Source: Synechococcus sp. AG-670-F04 (GTDB lineage Bacteria; Cyanobacteriota; Cyanobacteriia; PCC-6307; Cyanobiaceae). Taken from it: a stretch of DNA of 64,000 nt. The number at the start of each line of letters is the position of its first letter. The stretch's first letter is position 1. The translations under genes and the position numbers were made by a program. Under the pieces are notes generated by a model. That model made no database searches. It saw only the letters and a program-made list of their open reading frames with translations, and was not told where the DNA came from. Location: positions 1-64,000 of the forward strand of contig QCSN01000001.1 in the NCBI GenBank assembly GCA_003211515.1, given 5' to 3'. This document shows positions 41,489 through 56,400 of this stretch, in pieces.

Positions 41489-42875
41489 TTCGCTCCAGCA
41501 GAGCCAGTGACTCCAGATGGGTGGTCTGAGGAAAAAAATCCACCGGCTGAAGGCGATGCAACCGGTAAGCACCCTCTGGGCCCATCAGGGCCTTGAGGTC
41601 CCTTGCCTGGGTTGCGGGATCGCAACTGAGATACGCCAGCAAGGGAGGAGGGCTGCCCAGAATGGTCTCCACGACGCGTTGGTCCAGTCCACGCCGAGGC
41701 GGATCCAGGACAAGAGCGTCTGTGCCTGGCAACGCCTGCGCCAGTTGATCGGCGACGTCTCCCGCGATGAAACGACAGCGTGGGGCCAAACCGTTCAACG
41801 CAGCATTGGACACAGCCTGATCGACGGAAGAGGCATGCAGTTCGATGCCCAACACATCAAACCCAACCGCAGCCAAGGGAAGACTGATGGTGCCGACGCC
41901 GCAGTAAGCATCGACCAGCCTTCCGCTGCCAATGGTCTGCAGAAACCACTGGCGCAAGACGGTCACGATCGCCTCAGCCTGAAGTGTGTTGACCTGGAAG
42001 AAGGTTGTTGTGGCCAGCTGGAGCCGTTGACCGCAAATGCGTTCCTCAACCGTCTCGCATCCTGCGACCAGCCGCGTTTCCGTCCCGAGAATCAGGTTGC
42101 TCCGTTTGGGCTGCAGGTTGAGTGTCACGCCGCGGAGCTCCGACCATCGGGCCATCCATCGGTCAGCGAGAGACTTCAGACCCGGTAGAGCCTCATGGCT
42201 GCTAACCAGTGTGATCAACAGCTCACCGGAATGATGGGCCAACCGCAGACCCAAGTGCCGCAGTCCAGTGCCCGTCTGCAAGTCATGGTCAGCGGGCCAT
42301 CCGGTGGCCTGCAAATCGTTTTTGAGTGGCTGAATCAGCGCATCGAGGCGCGGATCGAGGACAGGACAACGATTCAGGTTGACGATGCGATGGCTTCCGC
42401 GTTTGAAATAACCAAGACGCAGGCGACCATCAGCTGCGCGATTGAGCGGGATTAGGGCCCGATTCCTGTACCCGAACGACCGATGCAGATCGCTGAGAAC
42501 GGGCTCCGGATCGGTGCAGATCTGGCCGAGACGGCGCAGTGTCTCAGCAAGGGAAGCATGTTTCCATCGCGCCTGAGACGGGTCGTCCAGATGCTGAAGT
42601 GTGCAGCCTCCGCAGTCAGCCGCGAGGATGCAAGGCGGCCGGCGACGGGCATCCGAGGGGTTGATCAGACGAACGCGACGGCTCAACCAGCGCGAACGTT
42701 GACGCTGCTGAAGCTGAACCTGAGCCTTTTCGCCAGGGAGCAGATCCGGAACAACGATCACCCAACCCATCCATCGGGCTAAGCCGCGACCATCTCGATC
42801 GAGATCCACGGCTTCCACCTCGATCAGCCGGCCTGGTCTTGGTGCCGCGTCGGTCGCTGACGTGGTCGGGGTCAT
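41466..42875 (-). CDS. rlmD: 23S rRNA (uracil-5)-methyltransferase, RlmD/TrmA family
   Basis: Methylates a uracil of rRNA (or tRNA) using SAM. About 469 residues from the ATG at 42875, where the N-terminal part becomes TRAM-like (GRLIEVEAVDLDRDGRGLAR). An iron-sulfur cluster is indicated by Cys residues in CILAADCGGCTLQ. The SAM motif is LVDAYCGVGTISLPLA at about residue 325. The catalytic Cys lies in AYLSCDPATQARDL near residue 425, with DPPRRGLD before it. RlmD versus TrmA/RlmCD cannot be settled by eye. It is divergent from apcD, with about 100 bases between starts. Confidence 0.88.
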   Translation of the reverse strand: MTPTTSATDAAPRPGRLIEVEAVDLDRDGRGLARWMGWVIVVPDLLPGEKAQVQLQQRQRSRWLSRRVRLINPSDARRRPPCILAADCGGCTLQHLDDPSQARWKHASLAETLRRLGQICTDPEPVLSDLHRSFGYRNRALIPLNRAADGRLRLGYFKRGSHRIVNLNRCPVLDPRLDALIQPLKNDLQATGWPADHDLQTGTGLRHLGLRLAHHSGELLITLVSSHEALPGLKSLADRWMARWSELRGVTLNLQPKRSNLILGTETRLVAGCETVEERICGQRLQLATTTFFQVNTLQAEAIVTVLRQWFLQTIGSGRLVDAYCGVGTISLPLAAVGFDVLGIELHASSVDQAVSNAALNGLAPRCRFIAGDVADQLAQALPGTDALVLDPPRRGLDQRVVETILGSPPPLLAYLSCDPATQARDLKALMGPEGAYRLHRLQPVDFFPQTTHLESLALLERISCGVQP

Positions 42876-42975
42876 GGATTCGCCGTCTCGGCATTGCAAT
42901 GGCGTAACAGCAGGTGCAACTCAAAGCGGCTCCACCCCATATGAGCACTACAGTCGTCAAAGCCTGCCCAGTTCC

Positions 42976-43470
42976 ATGAGTGTCGTCCGGGATCTCATCC
43001 TTCAGGCCGATGATGATCTGCGGTATCCCACCAGTGGTGAACTTCGCACCATGGTCGATTTCCTCGATCAGGGTGCCATGCGTGTCTCCGTTGTGAAGGT
43101 GCTGACGGAGAACGAAAAGAAGATCATCGATGAATCCGCAAAACAGTTGTTCAGTCGCAAGCCTGAATACGTCGCTCCGGGTGGCAACGCCTACGGACAA
43201 CGACAGAGGGCTCAATGCCTCCGCGATTACAGCTGGTACCTCCGATTGGTGACCTACGGAGTTCTGGCAGGCAGCACCGAGATGATCCAGGACATCGGTC
43301 TGATCGGTGCTCGCGAGATGTACAACAGCCTCGGCGTCCCGATGCCTGGGATGGTCGAAGCGATGAAGGCGATGAAAACAGCTGCTCTTGCCCTTCTCTC
43401 CGACCAACAGGTGAAAGTGGCATCGCAGTACTTTGATTTCCTAATCCGAGGAATGCAGACTCCCACCTGA
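42976..43470 (+). CDS. apcD: Allophycocyanin alpha-B subunit (ApcD)
   Basis: A 164-residue phycobiliprotein that acts as a terminal emitter in the phycobilisome core, sending energy to the photosystems. The ATG at 42976 gives the canonical opening MSVVRDLILQADDDLRYPTS; the frame is open upstream but does not belong. The chromophore-binding Cys sits in AQCLRDYSWYLRLVTYG at about residue 81. The final helix ends DFLIRGMQTPT. The gene is apart from other phycobilisome genes, as usual for apcD. Just past the stop lies the palindrome at 43476-43491. Confidence 0.95.
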   Translation: MSVVRDLILQADDDLRYPTSGELRTMVDFLDQGAMRVSVVKVLTENEKKIIDESAKQLFSRKPEYVAPGGNAYGQRQRAQCLRDYSWYLRLVTYGVLAGSTEMIQDIGLIGAREMYNSLGVPMPGMVEAMKAMKTAALALLSDQQVKVASQYFDFLIRGMQTPT

Positions 43471-43752
43471 CCAAACGTCTCAATTGAGACGCTTAAAGAG
43501 TCCAATCCAGCGTCTCAAGCTAGATCCTTGATCGGATTGCTTCTAGGGCCTTGCTTCCCGTCGTTAAACAGATCGGCAAAAGCAAGTCAATTTGAATCCA
43601 TTGACCCAGGCAGGCTCACTCTTTGTCTTACTTCGAGTCTTGCCAGAGACTATGACCGCACTTCTGCACTCCTCTGGTTGCTCGTTGCACCATGGATGGC
43701 CTAACGCTGATCTACAACTCTGAGAGGGCGGTCTGCGACAGGGGACATCGTT
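43471..43752. other. Palindrome-containing spacer between apcD and the HExxH gene
   Basis: About 280 bases holding one perfect palindrome (43476-43491) and one extra half-site GTCTCA at 43512-43517. It must contain the promoter of the HExxH gene. I see no additional coding sequence with a convincing start. Confidence 0.5.
43476..43491. promoter_or_regulatory. 16-bp palindrome of GTCTC-N4-GAGAC type
   Basis: CGTCTCAATTGAGACG is a perfect 16-bp palindrome, 5 bases after the apcD stop codon. It shares the outer arms with two other sites at 45235-45248 and 46076-46089. Such a symmetric short site is typical of an operator for a dimeric DNA-binding protein, but a terminator-like hairpin without U-tract is also conceivable. 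Confidence 0.6.
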
Positions 43753-44718
43753 TTGTCGAATCAAAACTTCGATTCTTATTGCAAAGGTTTTAAGGGGGCA
43801 GACACAACCTGGCCATCCCTTCCACTCCCTCTCGATCGACGCGAAACCTGGTGGGTCAAATGGATGGAGCAAACACCGGTGCAACAGCGCTGGTCGAAGC
43901 TTCAAAAACATTTGCCTCAACTCAGGATCCAACCTGGTCGCAACACGCGACGAACTGAGCGGTACAAGAGGCTTGTCTTGCAAGGCAAACAACCAAATAC
44001 CGCCGATCGGGAATGTGCCCCCCTGCTGGCAGACCCCAGAGGATTCAACATGTTTCTGGCAAGTCAACCCTGGGGGACGGTGCCCGTCCTCAGCTTCAAC
44101 AAGCAGGACGATTTCAAGTTGGCCCTGCGATGCCTGGCCTTCCGTTGTGAGGACGTCAATCTGCCAGCAACGGTTCACTCCCAGGCCATTAGCGGCTTGC
44201 CCCACTGGGGCTTGATAAGAGAAATCGACTCCAAGTGTCGCTGCCAGATTCTGCTCCTACATCGAGCCCCTTACAGCTCCATCCCTGCAGACCAGGTTCC
44301 TGGTGAACCAGATGCGGCGACATGGATTGAGCAATCGCAACAATGGCGACTAGCCCATGAACTCACCCACATTGCATGCCAGCGACTGGTGGGAGAAATG
44401 CGCATCAATCTCTTCGACGAACTGCTGGCCGATGCGGTGGGCATGCTTGCCGGGCTTGGCATGTATAGCGCCAAACTTTTTCGACAAGGATTAGGCCTCA
44501 AAAAAGACGCCACATTGATGCACAACGCTCGGGCTGAAGTTTATGTATCCAACCTGAAGCCAGAGGATCACAGGCGAGCGTTCCTCGCTGTTCTGGAACG
44601 AGCAGAGGAGCTAGAAAAACTTCTGAACGATGGCTGCTTGCCGCGCGAACCGATGCCTTTGCTGCAAATTCTTGTACGACAACGCCTCAATCAGCCGATC
44701 ACCGTTTGTGGAGCTTGA
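43753..44718 (+). CDS. Uncharacterised HExxH protein, putative zinc metallopeptidase
   Basis: A 321-residue soluble protein from a TTG at 43753 preceded by AGGGG. A later ATG at 43861 is possible. The N-terminal half is basic and of unknown fold. In the second half, WRLAHELTHIACQRLV carries an HExxH zinc motif (HELTH, residues about 201-205). A conserved-looking Glu in DELLADAVGM follows 18 residues later, the geometry of gluzincin peptidases. The C-terminal 90 residues are helical. No signal peptide is visible, so it probably acts in the cytoplasm. I cannot place it in a named family. Palindromic sites lie on both sides. Confidence 0.7.
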   Translation: MSNQNFDSYCKGFKGADTTWPSLPLPLDRRETWWVKWMEQTPVQQRWSKLQKHLPQLRIQPGRNTRRTERYKRLVLQGKQPNTADRECAPLLADPRGFNMFLASQPWGTVPVLSFNKQDDFKLALRCLAFRCEDVNLPATVHSQAISGLPHWGLIREIDSKCRCQILLLHRAPYSSIPADQVPGEPDAATWIEQSQQWRLAHELTHIACQRLVGEMRINLFDELLADAVGMLAGLGMYSAKLFRQGLGLKKDATLMHNARAEVYVSNLKPEDHRRAFLAVLERAEELEKLLNDGCLPREPMPLLQILVRQRLNQPITVCGA

Positions 44719-44864
44719 AATCATGAACTGCATCGGCTCACCGCTTTCAATCAACACCAAGCCGCGAAATCCTTCCCAGATGCCTCACGCATGAACCAAA
44801 ATGAGACACATCAATAGATTCAGATAAGACTAGCAAGACAAAGCGATCGAAGGCTTCAATAAAG

Positions 44865-44895
44865 TTGCGTACCTGTGTTTAAGACAGGTACGCAA
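44865..44895. repeat. Perfect 12-bp inverted repeat with 7-nt centre
   Basis: TTGCGTACCTGT and ACAGGTACGCAA are exact reverse complements around a 7-nt centre (GTTTAAG). No U-tract follows on either strand, so this is not a typical terminator. It may be an operator or the stem of a small RNA. Same geometry as the element at 908-938, with unrelated sequence. Confidence 0.7.
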
Positions 44896-45104
44896 AGGGC
44901 AGAATCATTTCCAGGACTGTCGTCCAACTGCAATGCCATGCTTCTGGACTGGACCTGGACAGCGCAATCCTGCTTTTTAACTGATTTGATGCTGACAAAA
45001 CGGAAGCCGAACCCCCACCCCCCACACGCGCTTCCCACAATTAAAAACATCAAAAATTGCCAATTTAATATTCTAAAAAATCGCAAATAAGACCGAAAAC
45101 AATT

Positions 45105-45120
45105 CTAGTCATAAGACTAG
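45105..45120. promoter_or_regulatory. 16-bp palindrome CTAGTC-N4-GACTAG
   Basis: CTAGTC and GACTAG are exact complements around ATAA. It has the same size as the GTCTC palindromes but differs in the arm sequence (AGTC rather than GTCTC). It lies in the gene-free region between the HExxH and YqhA genes. Possibly a relative of the same binding site; that is inference. Confidence 0.4.
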
Positions 45121-45234
45121 GCCAAGCTCTCTAAGAATCTTCCATCGATCCGCCTCTGCCTGGGAGCCAATCAAGGCAGTCAATCAAGAGGCATCAGCAA
45201 ATCGCCCCCAACAACAAAAGAGAATGGCGCAAGT

Positions 45235-45248
45235 GTCTCGTATGAGAC
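45235..45248. promoter_or_regulatory. GTCTC-N4-GAGAC palindrome upstream of yqhA
   Basis: GTCTCGTATGAGAC lies about 95 bases upstream of the yqhA start codon. It has the same arms as the sites at 43477-43490 and 46076-46089, with a different central four bases. Its position fits an operator for the YqhA gene. Confidence 0.6.
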
Positions 45249-45340
45249 TAATTCTAGGTCTTAAGCCTGGAGCCAGCCGAGACTTGCAAGACAGAATCTC
45301 CCATGCCTCGGTTTACGGTCGAAACATCTGATTCCACTCC

Positions 45341-45931
45341 ATGCCAAGCAACAGCGTCCTTGAGCGACGCTTCGAACGGCTGATCTGGCGTTTTCGCCTG
45401 GTCAGCATTGTTCCAGTTCTGCTCAGTCTGATGGGGAGTGTTGGATGTTTCCTCGTCGGGGCGCGGGAAATCCTGCAGGCCCTCGATGAATTGCTCTTCC
45501 ACAAATCGGCCCAGGCACATGAGACCGCCCTCGAGAAAAGCGTCGCCCAAATCGTTGGTGGAGTGGATTATTTCGTCATCGGCATCGTCTTATTGATTTT
45601 TGGCTATGGCATTTACGAACTCGTGATCTCTGACATTGATCCACGCCATGAAGGGGAGCTGGAGCAACACCGCAATCTTCTTTCCGTCGGAAGCCTTGAA
45701 AGCCTCAAACAAAACCTCACCAACGTGATTGTGGTGGCCTTGATCGTCTCAGCGTTCAAGAAAATGATTGGCTTCCCGGTGGAAAATACCACCGAGATGC
45801 TGACCCTCTGTACCTGTGTCGCCCTCTTGGCGCTGAGTGCATGGTTAATTGTGCGAAGCCACAGCACCACACAGCAATTCGAACAAAACAATCACACGCC
45901 CAGAATGAGACGCAAAAAAAGACTTAATTAA
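45341..45931 (+). CDS. YqhA/UPF0114-family membrane protein
   Basis: A 196-residue membrane protein with about four hydrophobic segments: VSIVPVLLSLMGSVGCFLVG, YFVIGIVLLIFGYGIYELVI, NVIVVALIVSAFKKM and MLTLCTCVALLALSAWLIV. The combination with the internal motif GYGIYELVISDIDP is characteristic of YqhA (UPF0114). No function is established for the family; some members affect ion balance. The ATG at 45341 is the first in frame. Downstream, a TGAGAC and a GTCTCA form an inverted pair around the stop codon. Confidence 0.85.
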   Translation: MPSNSVLERRFERLIWRFRLVSIVPVLLSLMGSVGCFLVGAREILQALDELLFHKSAQAHETALEKSVAQIVGGVDYFVIGIVLLIFGYGIYELVISDIDPRHEGELEQHRNLLSVGSLESLKQNLTNVIVVALIVSAFKKMIGFPVENTTEMLTLCTCVALLALSAWLIVRSHSTTQQFEQNNHTPRMRRKKRLN

Positions 45932-45938
45932 GGTCTCA
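45906..45938. repeat. Inverted TGAGAC / GTCTCA pair around the yqhA stop
   Basis: TGAGAC at 45906-45911 and its complement GTCTCA at 45933-45938 flank a 21-base, A/T-rich spacer containing the yqhA stop codon. A hairpin with a 6-bp stem is possible but weak. More notable is the recurrence of the same arms as in the palindromes nearby. Confidence 0.4.
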
Positions 45939-46075
45939 TCCGGTTTCAATGCGACTTGAAGCAGCAACAGACTCTTGTGAGTTTCGAGAGCCTTGCCGAT
46001 GAAGTCGGAAGATCAGGACAGAACAACATGCAAGTCAACTGAACAATGCAAGACGCAAGATGAGACCTGACCTGC

Positions 46076-46089
46076 GTCTCGCCTGAGAC
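46076..46089. promoter_or_regulatory. GTCTC-N4-GAGAC palindrome at the end of the RHH/J-domain gene
   Basis: GTCTCGCCTGAGAC lies 8 bases from the stop of the RHH/J-domain gene, in the gap between that gene and yqhA. A further TGAGACC at 46061-46067 makes this a dense cluster of the same arms (TGAGACC repeated at 46061 and 46084). It shares arms with the sites near apcD and yqhA. Confidence 0.55.
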
Positions 46090-46096
46090 CAATGAA

Positions 46097-47095
46097 TTAA
46101 CCCTGGCGGTACACCCCGCTCAGCAATTGGTAAGCCTCAGAGACGCGACGCATTGATTCCTGAGAACCACCAGTATCAGGATGAGCATTTTTTGCAGCTG
46201 TTTTAAATGCATCCTTGATGGATTTCAGGGTCACCTCAGCACCTGGCTGGGTGGAAATCCCTAACAATTTCAGAGCGCCCAACACGGTCATGGTGGATTC
46301 AAGCGTCTCAAACGAGGTGACTTTCTTGCTGCGACGGAACCGATTCACGAACCGTCGAACCATCGTTGGCATCCGTTCGGCCAGGGTGCTCGTGGCAAAC
46401 GGATCCTCAAGCGTTCCTGCAACCACCATCACGCGACCGAGACTGGGCTGATCCATTCCCCACTCCGAGCAGAGTCGCTGAACAGCCGAATTCGCTCCGG
46501 TCCACGTGAAGGGTTCCCCTTCACTGGCCTCCACGCTGGGCCACAGATCCCGCGAAAGCCAGGTGATCGCTGCCTCCACAACCGTGTTGCCGGGTTGTTG
46601 ACCGTAGAGCGAAGTCCAGTGAGCGTCGGCTGCACGTTCAGCTTCTACAAGGTCCTGATGACACACCACCGAAACCACCGGATCAGATTCCGACGCTTTA
46701 ACAGATGATCCTGCTTGAAGAGTCTGTTTGAGCGTTTTGCTGCGACGACGCACGAAGCCGGGCAGATCGATCCCCCCTCCTGAGTCTGCGCTAGGGCCCG
46801 CAGGCAGTGATGCGGAAGGATCGGAGGCCTCAGCGGATCGACTGTCTTTCGTCTTGATCAGAACCAGGCTGCTGGCTTCATGGACACTTGCCTGGGGATT
46901 GACGGAGACCGGATCCGATTCAGGCTGTTCGTCACTGTCATCCTCCTCAGGTTCAAGCAGATATCTCAACAGATGCTCAATGACCGCTCCACGGGAACGG
47001 ACACCGTATTCAGGCTTTAGGCCATCCAACGCGCTGATCAGGTCATCCGACAGAGTCAGCGATGTCTGACGTTTTTTAGAGCCCTCGCCAGACAA
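46097..47095 (-). CDS. Ribbon-helix-helix / J-domain fusion protein
   Basis: A 332-residue protein from a TTG start. The N-terminus resembles a CopG-type ribbon-helix-helix DNA-binding domain (TSLTLSDDLISALDGLKPEY then GVRSRGAVIEHLLRYLL, residues about 10-50). A long acidic, Ser/Pro-rich linker follows (50-130). The middle (about 145-255) is an unknown helical domain. The C-terminal 65 residues look like a J domain with the HPD motif in AAKNAHPDTGGS (KLLGISTQPGAEVTLKSIKD before it). The J domain suggests DnaK recruitment. Together they could deliver a chaperone to DNA-bound targets; this is inference. It is 24 bases downstream of the DUF3370 gene. Confidence 0.75.
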   Translation of the reverse strand: MSGEGSKKRQTSLTLSDDLISALDGLKPEYGVRSRGAVIEHLLRYLLEPEEDDSDEQPESDPVSVNPQASVHEASSLVLIKTKDSRSAEASDPSASLPAGPSADSGGGIDLPGFVRRRSKTLKQTLQAGSSVKASESDPVVSVVCHQDLVEAERAADAHWTSLYGQQPGNTVVEAAITWLSRDLWPSVEASEGEPFTWTGANSAVQRLCSEWGMDQPSLGRVMVVAGTLEDPFATSTLAERMPTMVRRFVNRFRRSKKVTSFETLESTMTVLGALKLLGISTQPGAEVTLKSIKDAFKTAAKNAHPDTGGSQESMRRVSEAYQLLSGVYRQG

Positions 47096-47119
47096 TCGGA
47101 CTGCGTCGCTGCCAGCAGA

Positions 47120-48670
47120 TTATCGACCTTGCAACTGACGTAACCACTCTTGTTGCCGACGAATGGCATTGTCATAACCCTGGTTCTGCTGGGGAATGAC
47201 CGGCAGCAGCGGTGGCGGTGGTGTTGTCCGCATCGTGGACGTGCCCGCAGCGGGCGGAGCGATAGTTAATGCAGGAACGGACTTGATCGGCGGCGGCGGC
47301 GTCTTGGGTTGCACCGTGCGATCCTTCTGTTGATCCAGGCGCTCGCGCGCTTCTCGTTGCTGCTCCTTGCTGCGGTGCAGCATTGCCAACTGCTGAACGG
47401 GAACCACGCTGAGGAGATGTCCAGGGGTGGCATCAGCTGGGTAGACCAGACTCACTTTGACGGCATTGGTCTGCCCAGGGACCAGATTCAAATCGGTTAA
47501 GGCCAGGCTTTCACCGGAGCGGAGTCCAACATGTACCTCGCGGTAGCCCTCCTTAGTTTCAATCCTGATCGAACCTCGAAAAGCGGTGAAAGTCTTCTTT
47601 CCTGACACCACAGGATGACTCATAACCAGTTGGTGCGCACCAGAGCCGACAAGGTTGAGAGTGACGTCGTAACGAACGCCATAGGTCCCGATGTTGTTCA
47701 ACGCTGAATCCACCATGCGTGTAGCCAGCTGATTCACCTGAACATCACGTGTGCCGAAATTGTGTCGTGCAGTGCTGGTCAACGGCACATGCAGTGCACC
47801 TTGCTGCAGATCGTGACTGATCGAGGCGCGATACGCATCGCCAAGAGCCACCCCAGCCACTCTTGAAAACACACGCCCCATCTGGATTTCACGGATTCGG
47901 TTTAGATAGATCCGTCCTGGAGCCAGTCGTCCAGCATTAAGAACCGAAAAAAGTTCGGCTTCATTCTTGGTTTCCTCCGCTGCAACCACCGCTAGGGAGA
48001 AGGGCCCATCACTTCGGCCACGCAACAATCCATTGGCGATGCCGCGCGCAGGGAGCACGGTGCTCACCACAACTTTCCGTCCACCGGGCGGGATGACAAC
48101 ACTGGATGGGAGCTGACGATCCAACTCATTACGAAGCATCTGAACAGCCGTAGCGTCACCGGGACCGGTGTTCCAGGGACGCTTCCCAAGGGGCTTCACC
48201 CCCATGAGGTTGTTGGGGTGATAGGGAGCCTGAAAGCTGTTCTTGACTGAACCCCGGTCAAATTTCAAGGTGACGGGGCTTCCACCAGGGTTGCTGGCAA
48301 TCAGAGCCAGGGTGAGCAGGCCCCGCGCCCGACGTCCACCCAGTTTGCTGCGGTCGTCTGGGTAGTACTTGTGGTGCATATGCACCCCAAACTCACCATT
48401 GAAGGTGTAACCAGGATTTCTAAGGGGGCGCTTGGTTTCTGCAGCAATTGCTGATCCTGCAGCGGTATTCACGAGGATTCCTGGTCCAGTGACGATTTCC
48501 GGCTGATTGGAATGAAGGACAGGAACGTTATTGAAGTTGCCGTTGAGAGCTCTCGCACGTTGACCAGCCATCAGCGCGACGTAGGCCGACGCTGTGGGGG
48601 CGATCACCATCTCGGCGGCAACAACCGAGACTCCAGCCAGGACCAGAATTGGGACTCTGCTGCGCGTCAT
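47120..48670 (-). CDS. DUF3370 secreted protein
   Basis: A 516-residue protein with an N-terminal signal peptide (VPILVLAGVSVVAAEMVIAP, cut near residue 29). The main body (about 30-430) is the DUF3370 domain known from cyanobacteria: PVLHSNQPEIVTGPGILV, YTFNGEFGVHMHHKYYPDD, and SNPGGSPVTLKFDRGS. The C-terminal part is Pro/Thr/Gln-rich and probably disordered. The fold is predicted beta-rich. It probably acts in the periplasm or at the cell surface; the function is unknown. The RHH/J gene lies directly downstream on the same strand. Confidence 0.85.
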   Translation of the reverse strand: MTRSRVPILVLAGVSVVAAEMVIAPTASAYVALMAGQRARALNGNFNNVPVLHSNQPEIVTGPGILVNTAAGSAIAAETKRPLRNPGYTFNGEFGVHMHHKYYPDDRSKLGGRRARGLLTLALIASNPGGSPVTLKFDRGSVKNSFQAPYHPNNLMGVKPLGKRPWNTGPGDATAVQMLRNELDRQLPSSVVIPPGGRKVVVSTVLPARGIANGLLRGRSDGPFSLAVVAAEETKNEAELFSVLNAGRLAPGRIYLNRIREIQMGRVFSRVAGVALGDAYRASISHDLQQGALHVPLTSTARHNFGTRDVQVNQLATRMVDSALNNIGTYGVRYDVTLNLVGSGAHQLVMSHPVVSGKKTFTAFRGSIRIETKEGYREVHVGLRSGESLALTDLNLVPGQTNAVKVSLVYPADATPGHLLSVVPVQQLAMLHRSKEQQREARERLDQQKDRTVQPKTPPPPIKSVPALTIAPPAAGTSTMRTTPPPPLLPVIPQQNQGYDNAIRRQQEWLRQLQGR

Positions 48671-48882
48671 GAGCGGCTGTGGGTCTGTCGCTGCGGACGA
48701 CTGGATTTGAAATCCCTTTCAAGTTCCAAACCTAATCGCCGCCTTTCAATGCGCCAAGCAAAACCACCCTGACGCAGCGGTACGAAGAATTCGCCAGGAT
48801 TAGATTCTTGGATCCCATCTTCATGCTTCCTCCCTTCTGCTGCTCCGAAACTGGCGATCTCAATAGCCGTAAACACCATCAT
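48667..48882 (-). CDS. Possible small protein upstream of DUF3370 gene
   Basis: A 71-residue reading frame whose TGA overlaps the ATG of the DUF3370 gene (ATGA). This is the same coupling style as other gene pairs in the window. The end (GGFAWRIERRRLGLELERDF) looks like a plausible amphipathic, basic protein segment. There is no recognised family and the first 30 residues are unconvincing. It could be a chance open frame. Confidence 0.3.
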   Translation of the reverse strand: MMVFTAIEIASFGAAEGRKHEDGIQESNPGEFFVPLRQGGFAWRIERRRLGLELERDFKSSRPQRQTHSRS

Positions 48883-48894
48883 CAGAAGCGCAAA

Positions 48895-49008
48895 ATGGCC
48901 ATGCTCACGTTCTGGCGCGATGGTCTGGAACGCCAGCTGTCAGCCATCAATGCAGCAATCAGCACGCTCGAACAACAAATCGAACGTGATTCTCATGCAG
49001 CTGGTTGA
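48895..49008 (+). CDS. Possible 37-residue protein
   Basis: A short frame beginning MAMLTFWRDGLERQLSAINA and ending in a helical stretch with LEQQIERDSHAAG. It is amphipathic and resembles small proteins found beside sigma factors in marine Synechococcus. An in-frame ATG further upstream (48808) would extend it to 66 residues. Its 3' end overlaps the sigma-factor gene end by 16 bases. No strong ribosome-binding site is seen. Confidence 0.45.
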   Translation: MAMLTFWRDGLERQLSAINAAISTLEQQIERDSHAAG

Positions 49009-49634
49009 TACGACGCCAACGCAGGAGCAAGCCGTTGTAAGCCCTGCTTCAGGCGTCGTTGCACCGTCATGGCAGAGGTATTGAGTCTGTTTGCTGCCTG
49101 TCTCAAACTTCTCCCCTCGAGGATGACGTGCTGAACCGCCTCCTTTTCCCGATCTGGCAATCCAGAGAGGGCATGCCGAACAGCTGAAGCTCGTTCATGC
49201 TGTTGCACAAACTCAAGGTTGTTGGGTTCCTCTCCATGCAGTTCGTCTGTCAGAGGAACCCAGCGATTTTTGTTTCTGTAACCCAGAAGCAACGATTCCT
49301 GATCAGAACTAACGGCTGAATTCAGCGTTTCCGTACGACGGATCAAGCCTTGAGCCTCCTCCTGGACACGACGCGGAAGTCGAACAAGTCCGACGTGATC
49401 ACGCAGGTAGTGCAGGATTGCGCCTCGGATGTGAGGCTTTGCAAACATTGAGAAATGGACCCCCTCCGTGTTCCGAAATCGCTGTGCTGCTTTGATCAAT
49501 CCCAGCATTCCGACCTGGAGCAGATCGTCAGCGTCATGGCCAGTGCGTTGGGCAAACCGCAACGCGATCGGTCGCACGAGCTCCAGGTGCTGACGGATGC
49601 GAGCATTTCGCTGCGAGAGGTTGTTTGTGGTCAT
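48993..49634 (-). CDS. Sigma-70-family RNA polymerase sigma factor (alternative)
   Basis: A 213-residue sigma factor. Region 2 is visible at about residues 15-80 (ADDLLQVGMLGLIKAAQRFR then AKPHIRGAILHYLRDHVGLV). Region 4 lies at about 145-205 (GLPDREKEAVQHVILEGRSL, then NRLNTSAMTVQRRLKQGLQR) with a helix-turn-helix. It is much shorter than the housekeeping factor and belongs to the alternative (SigF/group-3-like) type. Which stress or process it serves cannot be read from the sequence. It is encoded 74 bases from the Ap4A gene end. Confidence 0.9.
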   Translation of the reverse strand: MTTNNLSQRNARIRQHLELVRPIALRFAQRTGHDADDLLQVGMLGLIKAAQRFRNTEGVHFSMFAKPHIRGAILHYLRDHVGLVRLPRRVQEEAQGLIRRTETLNSAVSSDQESLLLGYRNKNRWVPLTDELHGEEPNNLEFVQQHERASAVRHALSGLPDREKEAVQHVILEGRSLRQAANRLNTSAMTVQRRLKQGLQRLAPALASYQPAA

Positions 49635-49708
49635 GGCTTGATCGGGGCGAAAGAGTTGTGCCCTCTAACAAGCGATGACTGACTGAACTGCGTCCTGCAT
49701 CCGGAAAA

Positions 49709-50560
49709 TCACGGAATCAGGGGTACAACCTCTCTGAGCAGAGCCTCTGGCCCCGCCTGTTCAAGCCACGGCAGATCCGACACGCTGGTACTCAGCAGGT
49801 ACCCCGCAAAGCCAAGAGCGTTGACACTGAAGCCGTGGACCCCCTCCTTTGAGCGAAGGATCAACGCCATCCACTGTCGGTTGAACAGGATGTTGTAAGG
49901 GCGTGCGGGTTGGTCGAGCAGCTCCGGCGTGCCAAGTCCTGCCCTCGAGCAGAGACTCCTGTAAGCATCACCAAGACACTCGGCCGTCAGCATGGATCCC
50001 GGCAAGGCCTGCACGACACAACTTGCTCTCAGAGGGTCGCGATCACGATCTGCGGACGGACCGGAATGCTCCAGGAACCATTTCGCCCTTGGACAGATCG
50101 GTTCATCTGCGCGACGGGGCAGAAGCTGAAGATGGCGATGGGGTTGACTGGCGCCAGCGGTGGGACCGCTGTTGAAAAACCACAGACCGCTGGTGTCCTG
50201 ATCGACGTGTGCCACCGCTTGCCAATCGACTCGACCCAACCAGCCGATCTGAGGCGCCCAATCCCTGCTGATCAACAGCATGTGACCGATCTGAACGGGA
50301 TATTTGTTCAGGATCAAGACATGATGTTTGTCGATCTGGTCCACCTGAAGCCTGAGATCCCAGGGCCGAAAAGGATTCAGCCTCGGCCCTGCAGCGCGCA
50401 GATGACGGGGGGGAACTCCCGTGAGATGACGGATCTCAAAGATCACTCCCGCCTCTCCATTCAACGATTCAAGCCGTGTAGCGAGCGGAACGAGAGCTGA
50501 TGCAGCCAGGGCTGCTTCGCTCTGAGCCAACGCTTGTTGCCAGAAACGCTCAGTCCCCAT
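49709..50560 (-). CDS. ATP adenylyltransferase (Ap4A phosphorylase)
   Basis: Splits diadenosine tetraphosphate into ATP and ADP. About 283 residues from the ATG at 50560, where the sequence becomes family-like (MGTERFWQQALAQSEAAL). A start at 50614 is also open. The HIT-type active-site motif is present (QPHRHLQLLP at about residue 140, pattern H-x-H-x-Q), preceded by HVLILNKYPVQIGHMLLI. The C-terminal domain includes YNILFNRQWMALI. The first 11 bases overlap the end of the SpoIID-type gene. Confidence 0.88.
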   Translation of the reverse strand: MGTERFWQQALAQSEAALAASALVPLATRLESLNGEAGVIFEIRHLTGVPPRHLRAAGPRLNPFRPWDLRLQVDQIDKHHVLILNKYPVQIGHMLLISRDWAPQIGWLGRVDWQAVAHVDQDTSGLWFFNSGPTAGASQPHRHLQLLPRRADEPICPRAKWFLEHSGPSADRDRDPLRASCVVQALPGSMLTAECLGDAYRSLCSRAGLGTPELLDQPARPYNILFNRQWMALILRSKEGVHGFSVNALGFAGYLLSTSVSDLPWLEQAGPEALLREVVPLIP

Positions 50561-51533
50561 CAGGCCGCAGTCGTGCCAAGGAAGCACCCCTGTAGTAGCG
50601 CCCCAGAATTTCATTGAAACGCAGGCCCTTGGCAGCCAGATCCTGCGCGCCCTGCTGACTCATGCTGGCACCGAGATGGCCGTGGGCTTCAGCGCTGATC
50701 TGGCTGTTGGCTGCGTAAAGGCTTTCCACGATTCCGCCCCTGTAACTCAGGATGATGCCACGGGTCGAGGTTGCGGCCTCCAGGGTGCGCTGACTTCGAC
50801 TTGCTTCGCCACCAAAAACCTGCCAGCGGGTTGTGTCACCCAGGTGGTAGTCCCTGGATGCAGGCCTGGCGAGATGGGCCATCGCGTAGGAGCGGGTCGC
50901 AACCGCCTGGGCCTTCAGAGCTTCAAGGTCCCAGCTGCTGGGCATTTCCGCTCCAACCACGGAGGCCACATAGTGTTCGAGATCGAGTTGGTTCACCGCC
51001 AGCCAGCCCTGATCGGCGGGAATTAGATCAACATCCTGTCTATAGGTGGAACCATTGATCTGAACCCATCCGCCCCGACAACGGATGGGTCTGCGAGGCT
51101 GAGAACGCAACACGAGAGGGAGTCGCATTTTTGGAATCTCTGGACCGTTCAGCTGGCGACAGGTGGTCCCTGGAGCAACGCGAACCGTCTGGACCGGCGC
51201 CTTGCTGAAGAGAGCCACGCGAACAGAAAGAGGCACGGACTCAGCTTCCGGAGGAATGATCGGAACCAGCGCCTTCGGTGCAACCGCTCCGACGCTGGAC
51301 GGCTGCGGTTGCGCTAATCGGGACTCTGCGTCCGGTGAAGAAGAATCAGCTGAAACCGAATCCGAGTGCGTGTCCTGAAGAAGTTCCTGGAGCGTGAGTG
51401 ATTCAGCAGTGGTCGCCAGCTGGAGCTCAGGACTTGGTCGACGAGACGCCAGAAGGACAGCGGTTGTCGCCAGACTCGCCAGAAGCAAAACAACAGCTCG
51501 ACGATGGGGTGGAACCACCGACATCAGGTCCAA
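50550..51533 (-). CDS. SpoIID/LytB-domain protein (amidase-enhancer type)
   Basis: A 327-residue exported protein with a hydrophobic start (AVVLLLASLATTAVLLAS). A low-complexity region follows. The SpoIID domain begins near residue 165 (INGSTYRQDVDLIPADQGWL), with the hallmark block VVGAEMPSSWDLEALKAQAV and then ATRSYAMAHL. SpoIID proteins act on peptidoglycan as lytic transglycosylases or activate amidases. The catalytic Glu is probably that in GAEMPSSW. It is divergent from the SDR gene, with about 60 bases between starts. Confidence 0.87.
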   Translation of the reverse strand: MDLMSVVPPHRRAVVLLLASLATTAVLLASRRPSPELQLATTAESLTLQELLQDTHSDSVSADSSSPDAESRLAQPQPSSVGAVAPKALVPIIPPEAESVPLSVRVALFSKAPVQTVRVAPGTTCRQLNGPEIPKMRLPLVLRSQPRRPIRCRGGWVQINGSTYRQDVDLIPADQGWLAVNQLDLEHYVASVVGAEMPSSWDLEALKAQAVATRSYAMAHLARPASRDYHLGDTTRWQVFGGEASRSQRTLEAATSTRGIILSYRGGIVESLYAANSQISAEAHGHLGASMSQQGAQDLAAKGLRFNEILGRYYRGASLARLRPDGD

Positions 51534-51592
51534 ACTCGCCGAATCATGACGGAGTCAGAGGCGAAAGCTCCGATCAAAGTGGCAGATCAACG

Positions 51593-52336
51593 ATGACGGC
51601 ACCGACAAGACCGTCAACCATCAAGGCGTCATGGGAGGGGTTGGCTCTAATCGTTGGAGCTGGTGGCATCGGCTCAGCCATTGCTACACAACTGGCCCAA
51701 CGCTGCCCGGCTCTCCAGGTTCTGACCTGTGGGCGCGGGGGAGCTCCAGATCAGGATTTGACCCTGAACGTCGAAAACGACGAATCGCTTGCGCGCTTCT
51801 GCGAAGCCGTTAGGCAACAGGCTCGCCCTTTGCGCCTTGTGTTCAACTGCAGCGGTCGCCTTCATGGACCAGGCCTGCAACCGGAAAAGCGGTTGCAGCA
51901 GGTGAACCGTCGTCAGCTTGAAGAGCAGTTCTCAATCAATGCAATCGCACCACTGCTGCTGGCCAAGGCGATTGAACCGATGTTGAACCGCCACGAGGCT
52001 TTTCACTTCGCCAGCCTGAGCGCCAGGGTGGGCAGCATCTCGGACAATCGCAGTGGCGGCTGGTACGGGTATCGCGCTGCAAAGGCCGCACAGAATCAGC
52101 TGATTCGCTGCCTCAGCATCGAATGGGCACGCCGTTGGCCGTCGGCCACGGTCACCTTGTTTCACCCGGGAACAACGGATACAGCCCTGTCAAAGCCGTT
52201 TCAATCCTTTGTGGCTCCGGAACAACTCTTCAGCCCGGAGCGAGCCGCAACCCAGCTGGTTGATCTGCTCCTGGAGCAGACGCCTGCGCAAACAGGTCGG
52301 TTTCTGGCCTGGGATGGTCAGGAGATTCCCTGGTAA
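51593..52336 (+). CDS. Short-chain dehydrogenase/reductase
   Basis: About 247 residues from the ATG at 51593; the frame is open upstream for about 65 codons of low-complexity sequence overlapping the SpoIID-type gene. The NAD(P)-binding motif is LIVGAGGIGSAIATQLAQ at about residue 19, followed by FNCSG (NAG-type motif) near residue 85. The catalytic pair is YGYRAAKAA (YxxxK) at about residue 159 with an upstream Ser. The substrate is unknown. The last 19 bases overlap the convergent DUF2237 gene. Confidence 0.9.
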   Translation: MTAPTRPSTIKASWEGLALIVGAGGIGSAIATQLAQRCPALQVLTCGRGGAPDQDLTLNVENDESLARFCEAVRQQARPLRLVFNCSGRLHGPGLQPEKRLQQVNRRQLEEQFSINAIAPLLLAKAIEPMLNRHEAFHFASLSARVGSISDNRSGGWYGYRAAKAAQNQLIRCLSIEWARRWPSATVTLFHPGTTDTALSKPFQSFVAPEQLFSPERAATQLVDLLLEQTPAQTGRFLAWDGQEIPW

Positions 52337-52713
52337 GCGTGTTCCCTGAGCTGTTCCAGGGTCACGACCAGCAAGGCCGTGTCTTCTGTTGCCTCCAGCC
52401 GAACCTTCGGCGCCATGCCGTCCTCATAGGCCTGCTTCCAGCGAGGTGCGCAAACACACCAATGGTCTCCTGGTTTCAGCCCTGGAAATTGGAAAGCGGG
52501 CATGGGGGTGGAGAGATCGTTTCCCTGCGCCTTGCTGTAGCGGAGAAAGGCTTCAGTCATCACGCAGCAGATGCTGTGCTGGCCGCGATCAGCGGCGTCC
52601 GTTTCGCAAAAACCATCGCGATGCCAACCGGTCATTGGTTTACATCCACACACCAAAAGAGGCTCACCGAAAACGTTGCGAGCGGTGGCGCTGACCTGAT
52701 TACTGCTGGTCAT
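52318..52713 (-). CDS. DUF2237 protein
   Basis: A 131-residue Cys-containing protein of the DUF2237 family. Characteristic blocks: LVCGCKPMTGWHRDGFCETD, GQHSICCVMTEAFLRYSKAQ and GDHWCVCAPRW. Six or more Cys residues and conserved acidic residues suggest metal binding. No function is established. The start ATG at 52713 lies about 110 bases from the next forward gene start. Its 3' end overlaps the SDR gene by 19 bases. Confidence 0.9.
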   Translation of the reverse strand: MTSSNQVSATARNVFGEPLLVCGCKPMTGWHRDGFCETDAADRGQHSICCVMTEAFLRYSKAQGNDLSTPMPAFQFPGLKPGDHWCVCAPRWKQAYEDGMAPKVRLEATEDTALLVVTLEQLREHAYQGIS

Positions 52714-52825
52714 CCTGAAGGCCTAAATCCAGGGGAGTCTGCCGAAGGAGTGGCACATTTTGACGACAGATGGTTGACGGACCCCTAGGGGAAGGCGTTA
52801 AAGGTCAGTGAGTTATGTCCCCCCG

Positions 52826-53056
52826 ATGGATTGGGAGTTCACGGAAGACGCCGCTTTTCTGGCGCTCTGCGACGCGTTTCGCGAGAGCGGCGAAACGTCA
52901 GCGATCGAGTTCCTAGCCAACGGTGAAGGGGCCTTTCATTTCCAGGATCTGGCGCAGAACGCGGCTGGAGAAGGCCTCGATCTCAGCGAATCCAGCGCAC
53001 TGGAATCGTTTCAGCAGGAAGTGATTGAAACCATGGAGAAGCTCTGCCAGGACTGA
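52826..53056 (+). CDS. Small acidic protein, unknown function
   Basis: About 76 residues from the ATG at 52826; a GTG at 52808 would add six residues. The protein is acidic and helical (MDWEFTEDAAFLALCDAFRE, then ALESFQQEVIETMEKLCQ). No known family is recognised. The last codons form the left arm of a strong hairpin at 53033-53074, which probably ends the transcript. Confidence 0.6.
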   Translation: MDWEFTEDAAFLALCDAFRESGETSAIEFLANGEGAFHFQDLAQNAAGEGLDLSESSALESFQQEVIETMEKLCQD

Positions 53057-53074
53057 CAGGCAGAACTTCTCCAT
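53033..53074. terminator. Long hairpin between convergent genes
   Basis: Arms of 15 bases (TGGAGAAGCTCTGCC at 53034-53048 and GGCAGAACTTCTCCA at 53059-53073) pair with one mismatch around a 10-base loop. It lies across the stop of the small acidic gene and close to the end of the convergent gene at 53080. It lacks an obvious U-tract but could act on both strands. Confidence 0.55.
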
Positions 53075-53079
53075 CGGGG

Positions 53080-53352
53080 TTAGCTGAAATAAAAGGCGAT
53101 CTCTTTGTCCTTGAGGCCGTCCCAGCCGGCTTCAATCAAACGTTGGTTCAGCGTGGCCTGGTCGAAGTGCTTAGCGCCGGTCTTAACGACTCTGTTGCGC
53201 ATTGATTTCAGAACGCCGCTTCGAGCCCGCTGACTCTCCAGTTCCATCACCTCCCTGTAGAGGGCCAGCTTGTCTGCAGGAATCGGAGAGCCATCAAGGT
53301 CGACCCCCGATTGAATGGCGGAATCAACACCGTCGGGTCCAGCAATCGCCAT
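53080..53352 (-). CDS. Small conserved protein, unknown function
   Basis: A 90-residue soluble, helical protein. The visible pattern KLALYREVMELESQRARSG then KSMRNRVVKTGAKHFDQATL and a final IEAGWDGLKDKEIAFYF resembles short proteins annotated as hypothetical in marine Synechococcus. No motif or membrane helix. It lies between metH and the acidic small gene, 57 bases from the metH stop. The start ATG at 53352 fits the beginning of the conserved sequence. Confidence 0.65.
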   Translation of the reverse strand: MAIAGPDGVDSAIQSGVDLDGSPIPADKLALYREVMELESQRARSGVLKSMRNRVVKTGAKHFDQATLNQRLIEAGWDGLKDKEIAFYFS

Positions 53353-53408
53353 GTACAGCCTTTGAAACCGACCAGGCTATGGCGCCTAGATGCCGCACTG
53401 AGAATCGA

Positions 53409-56400
53409 TCAAGCGCTGAAGTAACGGGCCTTGCTGTGGATGGCGACCAATGCGGTTGTGCTCTGCTCTGGGGAGAGTTGATCACTGGCATCCATTGTCA
53501 GACCGATGCGTCCTGCATCCAGCCAATCCAGTTGCTGACGAGAATCCGCCACGTTCGGACAGGCTGGATACCCGAAGGAATAGCGGCTGCCGCGATAGCG
53601 CTGGGCCAGAACGTCGCGAAGCGACATCTCAGCAGGATCGGCGAAGCCAAGCTCCCGGCGGATCCGTGCATGCACCCACTCCGCCAGCGCTTCTGCCATC
53701 TGGACCGCTAGGCCATGGAAATAAAGGTAATCGCTGTACTGATCGGATTTGAACAGCTCCTGAGCTACCTCACTGGCCTTATCTCCCATCGTCACAGCCT
53801 GCATGGGCAGCACATCGGTCGGACGATCGTCAGCCGGTAAGTCCTGGAAGAAATCAGCGATGCAATAGCGATTCCCCGCGCGTTGGCGCGGGAGATCAAA
53901 GCGACCGAGTTCCGTGGAGCCTTGAAGATCGAACACGCGCAGGGAATTTCCATCACGGCCGACTGGGAAGTAGCCATAGGCAACCCTTGGGGTGAGTAAC
54001 CGCTCCGAGAGACACCTGTCAATCCATTGCTGCAGGACGGGCTCAGCCTTTTCCTCCAGTAGGGCCTGGTAGTCGTCCCGGGATTGCTTCTGCGTCTTGC
54101 GGATCTGCCACTGACCGGCGAACAGAGCATTGCGATCGAGATAGGGGAACACCTGATCGAGGGCAATCTCTTTCTCGTCCAACAGAGCTGCTCCAAGGAA
54201 GGGTGGGACGACAGCCGGCTCAGCCGGCACAGCTTCAGAGCGTTCTGTGCTCACAACAGCGGGCACCGTTGGGGGTGCTGCGGCGGCGACGTCTCCCTTG
54301 GCGTCGTTATCTGGAGAGCTGGGCTCATGATCGTCATCGAGCCCGACACCAGCGGGTGCGCCGTTAAGAAAACCAGCCTGATTGCTCCAGCTGTCCTGGT
54401 TCTTGGCCTCCATCAGGGCATCCATGAAGCGAAGATCCGCGAAGGCATCCCGGCCATAGACCACCTTGCCGTTGTAGGCGGCTCGACAATCCTTCTGTAC
54501 AAAGCGGGGGGTCAGGGCGGCACCACCAAGAATCACCGGCACATCAATCCCGGCATCGTTGAAGGCTCCTAGGTTGTCCTTCATGAAAGCCGTGGATTTC
54601 ACGAGCAGACCACTCATGGCGATGCAATCCGCCTGATGCTCATGCTGCGCATCAATGATCGCGTCACAACTCTGCTTGATACCGAGATTGACGACCTCGT
54701 ATCCATTGTTGGTGAGGATAATGTCGACCAAGTTCTTGCCGATGTCATGGACATCGCCTTTCACGGTGGCGATTAAGAACTTGCCCTTGCTGCTGCTCTC
54801 CCCCTCCATCTTCTCCATGTGCGGTTCCAGATAAGCCACCGCTGATTTCATGGTCTCTGCGCTCTGCAGCACGAAGGGAAGCTGCATCTGGCCACTGCCA
54901 AACAGCTCACCCACCACCTTCATGCCATCGAGCAGGAAGGTGTTAACGATCTCCAACGGTTGATGGGTTTGGAGACCTTCATCGAGAGCAGGTTCAAGCC
55001 CGATGCGTTCACCGTCGATAATGTGTTGCTTGAGGCGCTCCTCAATCGGCAGATCAGCCAGGGAAGGACCTGATGCACGTGCCTCTTTGGTGCTGACCCC
55101 CTCGAACAGTTTGGTCAGTTCAGTGAGCGGGTCATAGGTGCAGATCCCATCGTCAAAACCACGGTTGTCATTGATCAGGTCACGACATACTTTCTGATGG
55201 TCGTCACTGATTTTGATCAGCGGCAAGATCTTGGCCGGACTGACAATCGCTGCATCCATGCCGGCCTCGCAACAGTCATGCAGGAAGACCGAGTTCAGAG
55301 TGATCCGCGCTGCAGGTGAAAGACCGAAGCTCACATTGCTCACCCCCAGGACCACATGCACACCGGGGAGGTTGTCGCGAATCATCCGGATGGCATCAAC
55401 GGTCGCCTTGCCGTTAAGGCGATCCTCCTCAATGCCGGTGGAGATGGGCAAAGCGAGTGGGTCGTAAAAGATTTCACGGGCCGGGATGCCGAACTCCAGT
55501 GCATCGCGATAGGCCCGCTGAGCGATCGCGAACTTTTTCTCCGCTGTGCGGGCCATCCCATCCTCATCAATGGTGCCCACCACAACGCCCGCGCCATAAC
55601 GGCGCGCCAATTCCAGAACCTTGAAAAAACGCTCGTCGCCGTCCTCGTAATTGGTTGAATTGAGGATGCACTTGCCACCGGCCACCTTGAGGCCCGCTTC
55701 CATCTTCTGCCACTCGGTGGAATCAAGCATGAGCGGCAGATTGACGTTCGTGACCAAACGACTCACAAGGTTGTGCATGTCCTGCTCACCGTCACGACCC
55801 ACGTAGTCGACATTCACATCGAGCACGTGGGCGTTCTCTTTCACCTGACCACGGGCCACAGACACCAGGCCATCCCAGTCCTCCTCGGCAAGCAATTCGC
55901 GCACCTTTCGGCTTCCACTGGCATTGAGCCGTTCACCGATGATCAGGAACGAATTGTCCTGCTGGTATGGGGTGACGCCGTAAATGGAGGCGGCGGCGGG
56001 TTCATAGTTCAGTGAAGGCCGCACTGTTTCGGCCTCGGCTAGGCGCCTGGCGGAGCGTTCCGCCGGGGTGAGTTCAGAGGCCAGCTCCGCCAGGGCTCCG
56101 ATGTGTGCCGGCGTTGTGCCGCAGCAACCACCGATCACCTGCACACCGAGATCTTCAACAAAGTGCATCAGCTGCATCTTCAGCTCGATTGGTGTGAGCC
56201 GGTAATGAGCCACACCCCCGACGTTCTCAGGCAGGCCGGCGTTAGGGATGCAACTCACCGTGAATGGTGAATGCTCGGAGAGATAGCGAATGTGTTCCTT
56301 CATCTGCTCCGGGCCGGTCGCGCAGTTCAGGCCGAGGATGTCGATCGGAAACGGTTCGAGGATCGACACCACAGCTGCAATGTCGGTGCCGACGAGCATG

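Follow-up and report, generated by a model that had tools for sequence, protein, structure and literature searches.

A ribbon-helix-helix domain joined to a C-terminal J domain in a cyanobacterial protein family

J proteins supply DnaK with targets. The 64,000-nucleotide stretch of Synechococcus sp. AG-670-F04 analyzed here (the window) contains a gene whose product appears to carry a DNA-binding fold at one end and a J domain at the other. Is this combination genuine, and what might a protein built in this way do? We addressed these questions by comparing the protein with its relatives, modeling its structure, and examining the place of its gene in the genome.

Domain architecture of the RHH-J protein

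The gene and the domains assigned to its product are as follows.

46097..47095, minus strand: whole gene, encoding a ribbon-helix-helix (RHH) domain, an acidic linker, a helical middle domain and a J domain (332 amino acids, TTG start, stop codon included)
46952..47071, minus strand: RHH domain, residues 9-48 (strand 9-16, helix A 17-30, helix B 35-47), assigned from the RHH_1 match of the isolated N-terminus, the structural match to NikR and CopG, and invariant residues
46778..46951, minus strand: linker, residues 49-106, acidic and modeled at low confidence, including a conserved LVLI patch around residues 78-82; delimited by pLDDT, sequence identity and the invariant V78
46751..46777, minus strand: conserved motif GIDLPGFV, residues 107-115 (mean pairwise identity 0.85, four invariant residues)
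46325..46669, minus strand: helical middle domain, residues 143-257, from a model of residues 136-262; no match among solved structures was found
46103..46312, minus strand: J domain, residues 262-331, ending after helix III (helix IV absent), assigned from Pfam DnaJ, the model and VIA-align
46175..46183, minus strand: HPD motif, residues 305-307, present in 39 of 39 orthologs

A Pfam search of the 332-residue protein at E ≤ 1 returned only DnaJ and RHH_1; zinc-binding and DnaJ C-terminal domains were absent. The DnaJ match (residues 278-326, 24.8 bits, E 2.4e-5) lies under the cut-off of 27.8. We aligned the window protein with orthologs from 38 of 58 loci, leaving out duplicates and near-duplicates by choice, and these 39 sequences show 40-68% identity to the window protein. 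Every one of them matched DnaJ and retained HPD. The residues aligned with R22, Y25 and K26 of DnaJ, which are functionally important contact residues of helix II, were basic, aromatic and basic in all 39. In the AlphaFold2 model, two J helices (residues 290-304 and 312-331) are connected by a loop that holds HPD at 305-307. Structural comparison of this part with VIA-align gave Tim16 as the best match (2guz_B, Z 10.6, rmsd 1.8 over 63 residues), with the DnaK-bound J domain of DnaJ (5nro_B) at Z 7.0 and many other J domains at Z 5-7.7. Among PDB sequences, the J domain of the SV40/polyomavirus large T antigen came closest by profile (1gh6, E 3.9e-5). The protein did not score as a canonical DnaJ (TIGR02349 equivalog, 19 bits vs a required 377.2). 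Its hairpin of helix II, HPD and helix III, with an intact HPD and without zinc-binding or DnaJ C-terminal domains, has the features of class C J proteins, which bear assorted additional domains according to the available part of PMC7609799.

The N-terminus gave weaker scores. RHH_1 matched residues 11-48 of the whole protein with 17.3 bits (E 0.0047, curated cut-off 20.5), and the isolated N-terminal 52 residues scored 21.5 bits, above that cut-off. Among the whole proteins of the family, 16 of 39 matched RHH_1 at E ≤ 0.01. We also searched 32 isolated N-termini, made up of 29 of the 39 aligned orthologs and three stand-alone RHH proteins, and 27 of these matched at E ≤ 0.1; none of ten shuffled controls (five N-terminal, five C-terminal) had a Pfam match at this threshold. 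A six-frame scan of the own genome with the RHH_1 model did not pick out the RHH-J protein at E ≤ 0.001, and a profile built from the N-termini matched nothing among PDB sequences under E 0.1. No single match was strong, and the RHH assignment draws on three lines together: the score of the isolated domain, the pattern across the family, and the fold. The alternating hydrophobic strand pattern of RHH proteins is present in all 39 orthologs within a strand-helix-helix unit of about 45 residues, as in the RHH (CopG/MetJ/Arc) superfamily. Residues D24, R33, R35, G36 and L43 are invariant, and the start of helix B, the usual phosphate-anchoring spot in RHH proteins, reads R-x-R-G in 39 of 39. At position 9, 31 of the 39 orthologs have a basic residue. 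Position 14, which faces outward on the strand at a spot where RHH proteins often contact bases, is acidic in 25 of 39. VIA-align matched the N-terminal part to NikR (1q5v_B, Z 5.5, rmsd 2.9, 45 residues) and CopG (1ea4_E, Z 5.0, rmsd 2.2, 44 residues); Z values near 5.0-5.5 over 44-46 residues are weak alone, as common arrangements also score there, and they gain weight here from their agreement with the profile and the sequence pattern.

In the same lineage, some relatives encode stand-alone RHH proteins of 53-75 amino acids (L100:1371-1532, L101:1309-1470, L102:1047-1274). They align with the N-terminus of the fusion across the whole domain and are possibly the source, or a competitor, of its DNA-binding domain.

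Between the two ends, residues 48-106 contain 14 D/E vs 3 K/R, and pLDDT is below 50 for residues 49-110. V78 is invariant in the 39-row alignment. The linker is otherwise variable and of low confidence around GIDLPGFV, in which I109, L111, P112 and F114 are invariant in all 39 and which looks like a short partner-binding motif. Mean pairwise identity was highest, among the domains, for J (0.73), followed by the middle domain (0.56) and RHH (0.53), against 0.18 for the linker and 0.85 for GIDLPGFV. The full AlphaFold2 model, built from 39 rows, had a mean pLDDT of 75.7, with confident RHH, middle and J domains and a low-confidence linker. Its pTM was only 0.44, so the model does not fix the relative arrangement of the domains. 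Modeled alone (residues 136-262, 38 rows, one fewer than the full alignment), the middle domain gave five helices with pLDDT 92 and pTM 0.86. Nothing convincing resembled it in the PDB by Foldseek, which may miss folds (best E 0.57), or by VIA-align among 998 chains (best Z 3.9). Two of 38 middle domains matched Pfam YunG (best E 0.001), which we treated as chance. Foldseek on the full model listed J domains and an Arc repressor with E values not significant alone, and a viral structure library yielded no match at E ≤ 0.001, with J-type structures among the top rows.

As judged from sequence and model, then, the RHH-J architecture is real: each end is weak in the window protein alone, and both are confirmed by the family. 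The initial annotation had proposed this CopG-type N-terminus, acidic linker, helical middle and C-terminal J domain with an intact HPD, and all four parts held. It had named two outcomes that would speak against it, a lack of any RHH match at the N-terminus in profile searches and a J fold without the helix-loop that carries HPD. Neither occurred, as RHH_1 did match and the predicted structure retains the hairpin of helix II, HPD and helix III.

Distribution and descent of the family

We searched for the protein at increasing phylogenetic distance. The relatives' genomes presumably belong to Cyanobiaceae, that is, picocyanobacteria such as Prochlorococcus and marine Synechococcus. Among 59 relatives searched, long matches were found in 30 of 34 genomes of the own genus and were absent from G008, G018, G019 and G025. 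A sample of the cyanobacterial family gave matches at E ≤ 0.001 in 262 of 300 genomes and 43 of 59 genera; about 245 of the 300 genomes had strong matches, and the other 17 were weak (best E above 1e-10). A class-wide profile search of 242 genomes returned 29 full-length matches, all in the same family. Outside the family, only the J region was found among the matches listed in the class profile search and the search of 59 relatives. When 292 genomes of the phylum were searched with the middle domain as query, 36 were hit, all from the same family; each had a single hit, which lay in an open frame of 333-377 amino acids. On this sampling, neither the architecture nor the middle domain occurs beyond one cyanobacterial family. 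Family genomes that are at least 90% complete measure about 1.6-4 Mb, and the gene is likely to matter because it is retained in such small genomes.

This near-core gene of the family occupies the same chromosomal place in all 21 loci compared (20 genomes and the window), counted as at least one shared flank. One flank carries an Ap4A-phosphorylase-like gene, joined in larger genomes by a sigma factor gene and a DUF3370 gene; the other carries RlmD and PheT. The Ap4A side was rearranged or not seen in two loci, L055 and L057. The gene is missing from genera g31 (3 of 3 genomes) and g72 (one genome). In a PheT tree, g72 and two g31 genomes group with the outgroups, and a branch with support 100/99 separates the gene-bearing genomes. 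G008, which lies inside the genus, and G080, which is weakly placed in the tree (70/89), have kept the flanking genes and lack the RHH-J gene. Since these genomes are nearly complete, the protein is dispensable in both. Absence from G061, G069 and G076 is uninformative, as PheT was also not found there. The tree is compatible with a single gain and two or more losses.

We also considered whether the gene is cargo of a phage or mobile element. None of 157 phage records covered 80% of the query, and the top phage match consisted of two small DnaJ-domain genes. Plasmids held no full-length copy and one record with the J region; viral contigs likewise held no full-length copy and one J-only locus. 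We rejected this origin because all of these matches were partial or J-only. The protein is old and vertically inherited.

We found no RHH-J fusion in the literature searched, coverage of which leaves out most subscription journals, in keeping with the initial remark that the architecture is not well known. No protein of matching length appears in the clade-specific protein table in the available part of PMC2823733; the BLAST criterion of that study would in any case probably exclude a J-domain protein. The accessible portions of PMC4365693 and PMC10754441 contain nothing on the RHH-J protein.

Neighboring genes and the upstream region

Two neighboring genes define the upstream side of the locus.

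47120..48670, minus strand: DUF3370 gene upstream of the RHH-J gene (Pfam E 6.6e-99), 24 bp before the RHH-J start
48808..49008, plus strand: conserved small protein of about 60 amino acids, divergent from the DUF3370/RHH-J unit, with homologs in relatives

The gap between DUF3370 and RHH-J measured 2-36 bp in all nine loci with DUF3370 directly upstream, and the two genes probably share a transcription unit. In ten loci an Ap4A-phosphorylase-like gene lies directly upstream instead, at a distance of 320-531 bp. The more likely conserved start of the small protein is the ATG at 48823. A homolog was found in 21 of 26 loci scanned, a set that does not include the own genome, and was divergent where checked; it is also encoded in two loci without the RHH-J gene. 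Its sequence follows a pattern like MLxFWRDGLERQLxAINAAISTLEQQIERD and matches no Pfam family above cut-off.

We searched the intergenic region that separates the divergent small gene from the DUF3370/RHH-J unit in 22 genomes for an operator, by eye and by program alignment, and found no clear conserved palindrome. The same region contains short conserved blocks (GCCAAG and CGCCAGGAT-like), and in genus g40 the upstream region holds a divergent small gene instead of a site. Rfam returned nothing over 43000-53500.

Two further genes were noted nearby. A short sigma-70 family factor of 213 amino acids (48993-49634, minus strand) best matches the SigF type, well below cut-offs, and in larger genomes of the family it adjoins the DUF3370 and fusion genes. 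An allophycocyanin-alpha-like gene at 42862-43470 on the plus strand scores below the NCBIfam ApcA cut-off; it neighbors RlmD in several genomes, including relatives without RHH-J.

Possible functions of the RHH-J protein

From its domains and model, we tentatively propose that the protein may well be a class C J protein that is anchored on DNA and brings DnaK to a client associated with the chromosome. This predicted function, in which a chaperone is delivered to a DNA-bound protein as the initial annotation had suggested, is the simplest reading. Two chains would dimerize by way of the RHH domains at their N-termini and in this form occupy DNA. The flexible acidic linker would tether the helical middle domain, whose role would be to keep a particular client or partner in place at the DNA site. 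Because HPD and the helix II contacts are intact in it, the J domain would recruit DnaK-ATP and trigger its ATPase, and DnaK would lock onto and remodel the client, which could be a regulator, a nucleoprotein complex or the RHH-J protein itself. The conservation of HPD and the contact residues (39 of 39), the RHH pattern, R-x-R-G, the confident middle domain and synteny argue for this proposal; the acidic position 14 (25 of 39), the lack of an operator, the marginal RHH_1 scores and the loss in some lineages argue against it. That most of a cyanobacterial family has retained, at one chromosomal place, a J protein that would carry its own DNA anchor suggests a lasting need for remodeling on DNA. 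As a speculative extension, which we rate as improbable, picocyanobacteria may have evolved once a site-directed chromosomal chaperone, in which an RHH dimer parks DnaK at defined loci and a new helical domain holds the complex that DnaK dismantles. If true, gene control or replication in phototrophs that rank among the most abundant would include ATP-driven unfolding as a step.

The RHH domain might instead serve only for dimerization, leaving a soluble class C J protein whose middle domain and GIDLPGFV motif choose a client unrelated to DNA. An acidic residue at the usual base-contact position in 25 of 39 orthologs, the better conservation of the J domain, middle domain and linker motif than of RHH, and the negative operator search in 22 genomes are consistent with this, but the R-x-R-G that opens helix B in every one of the 39 orthologs, and the basic position 9 (31 of 39), speak for contact with DNA. 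We consider dimerization alone somewhat unlikely.

A conventional RHH repressor could also act as a stress sensor, with DnaK altering its DNA binding through the J domain. HspR-DnaK and HrcA-GroE are comparable chaperone-set repressors, and a J domain in cis would couple such a repressor tightly to DnaK availability. The transcription unit begins beside a divergent small gene, as is often seen with autoregulators; however, the divergent region of 22 genomes has no conserved operator, and a folded middle domain of 115 residues would be superfluous for a simple repressor. This explanation is doubtful.

It is very improbable that this J domain is, like Tim16, a structural relic and has ceased to work with DnaK. 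Tim16 is the best VIA-align match (Z 10.6) and helix IV is absent, but Tim16 lacks HPD, and RHH-J proteins keep HPD in 39 of 39 along with the contact residues of helix II. A chance resemblance or a spurious open reading frame, suggested by single-sequence Pfam scores just under the cut-offs, is refuted by the conserved family (full-length orthologs at 40-68% identity, in one open frame), synteny (one place) and shuffled controls (0 of 10).

Comparison with known systems

We compared the RHH-J protein, read as a DNA-anchored J protein, with systems that share one or more of its parts. In CbpA, an N-terminal J domain is followed by DnaJ-type C-terminal domains, whereas the RHH-J protein has an N-terminal RHH as its DNA fold, a C-terminal J domain and no DnaJ C-terminal domain. 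The two would be alike in uniting a J-protein chaperone and a DNA binder in one protein; CbpA is nucleoid-associated in Escherichia coli and is described as binding DNA as a dimer only (PMC2955964, in part). The SV40/polyomavirus large T antigen also joins a J domain to a DNA-binding module, and HPD-x-GG occurs in both proteins. Its J domain is N-terminal and precedes an origin-binding domain and a helicase; it has no RHH, and no relatedness to RHH-J was found outside the J domain. The eukaryotic proteins DNAJC2/Zuotin and DNAJC1 combine a J domain with SANT domains, placing J and a chromatin-type domain in one chain as RHH-J pairs J with RHH, but their DNA/histone module and their order are different.

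Other systems share one end. The N-terminal 45 residues resemble the regulators CopG, NikR and MazE9 by profile and fold, none of which is known to have a J domain. Tim14/Tim16 share a C-terminal J-type fold and gave the highest structural score; they belong to the mitochondrial import motor and have no DNA-binding part. By analogy, the RHH-J protein plausibly works like DNA-associated J proteins (CbpA, T antigen, DNAJC2), but it belongs under none of them, since order and DNA module differ. The nearest biological precedent we met for RHH plus DnaK is in Myxococcus xanthus, where the RHH nucleoid protein CdbA, CdbS and PilZ-DnaK chaperones form one chromosome-organizing pathway, as described in the available part of PMC10313047. 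Those are separate proteins linked via CdbS, whereas RHH-J is a fusion. We find it plausible to describe the RHH-J protein as a DNA-associated J protein with an RHH module, a C-terminal J domain and a middle fold for which we found no match among solved structures.

Other J proteins in the same genomes

Each of four genomes contained 4-7 DnaJ matches, and RHH-J is therefore one specialized J protein among several. The own genome encodes a second C-terminal J protein (L098:1822-2697, contig C47) with HPD followed by MGG and a coiled-looking N-terminus. We rejected its kinship with RHH-J, as the family profile matches its J region only and its N-terminus looks coiled. This protein, of about 260-290 amino acids, has relatives in many members of the genus.
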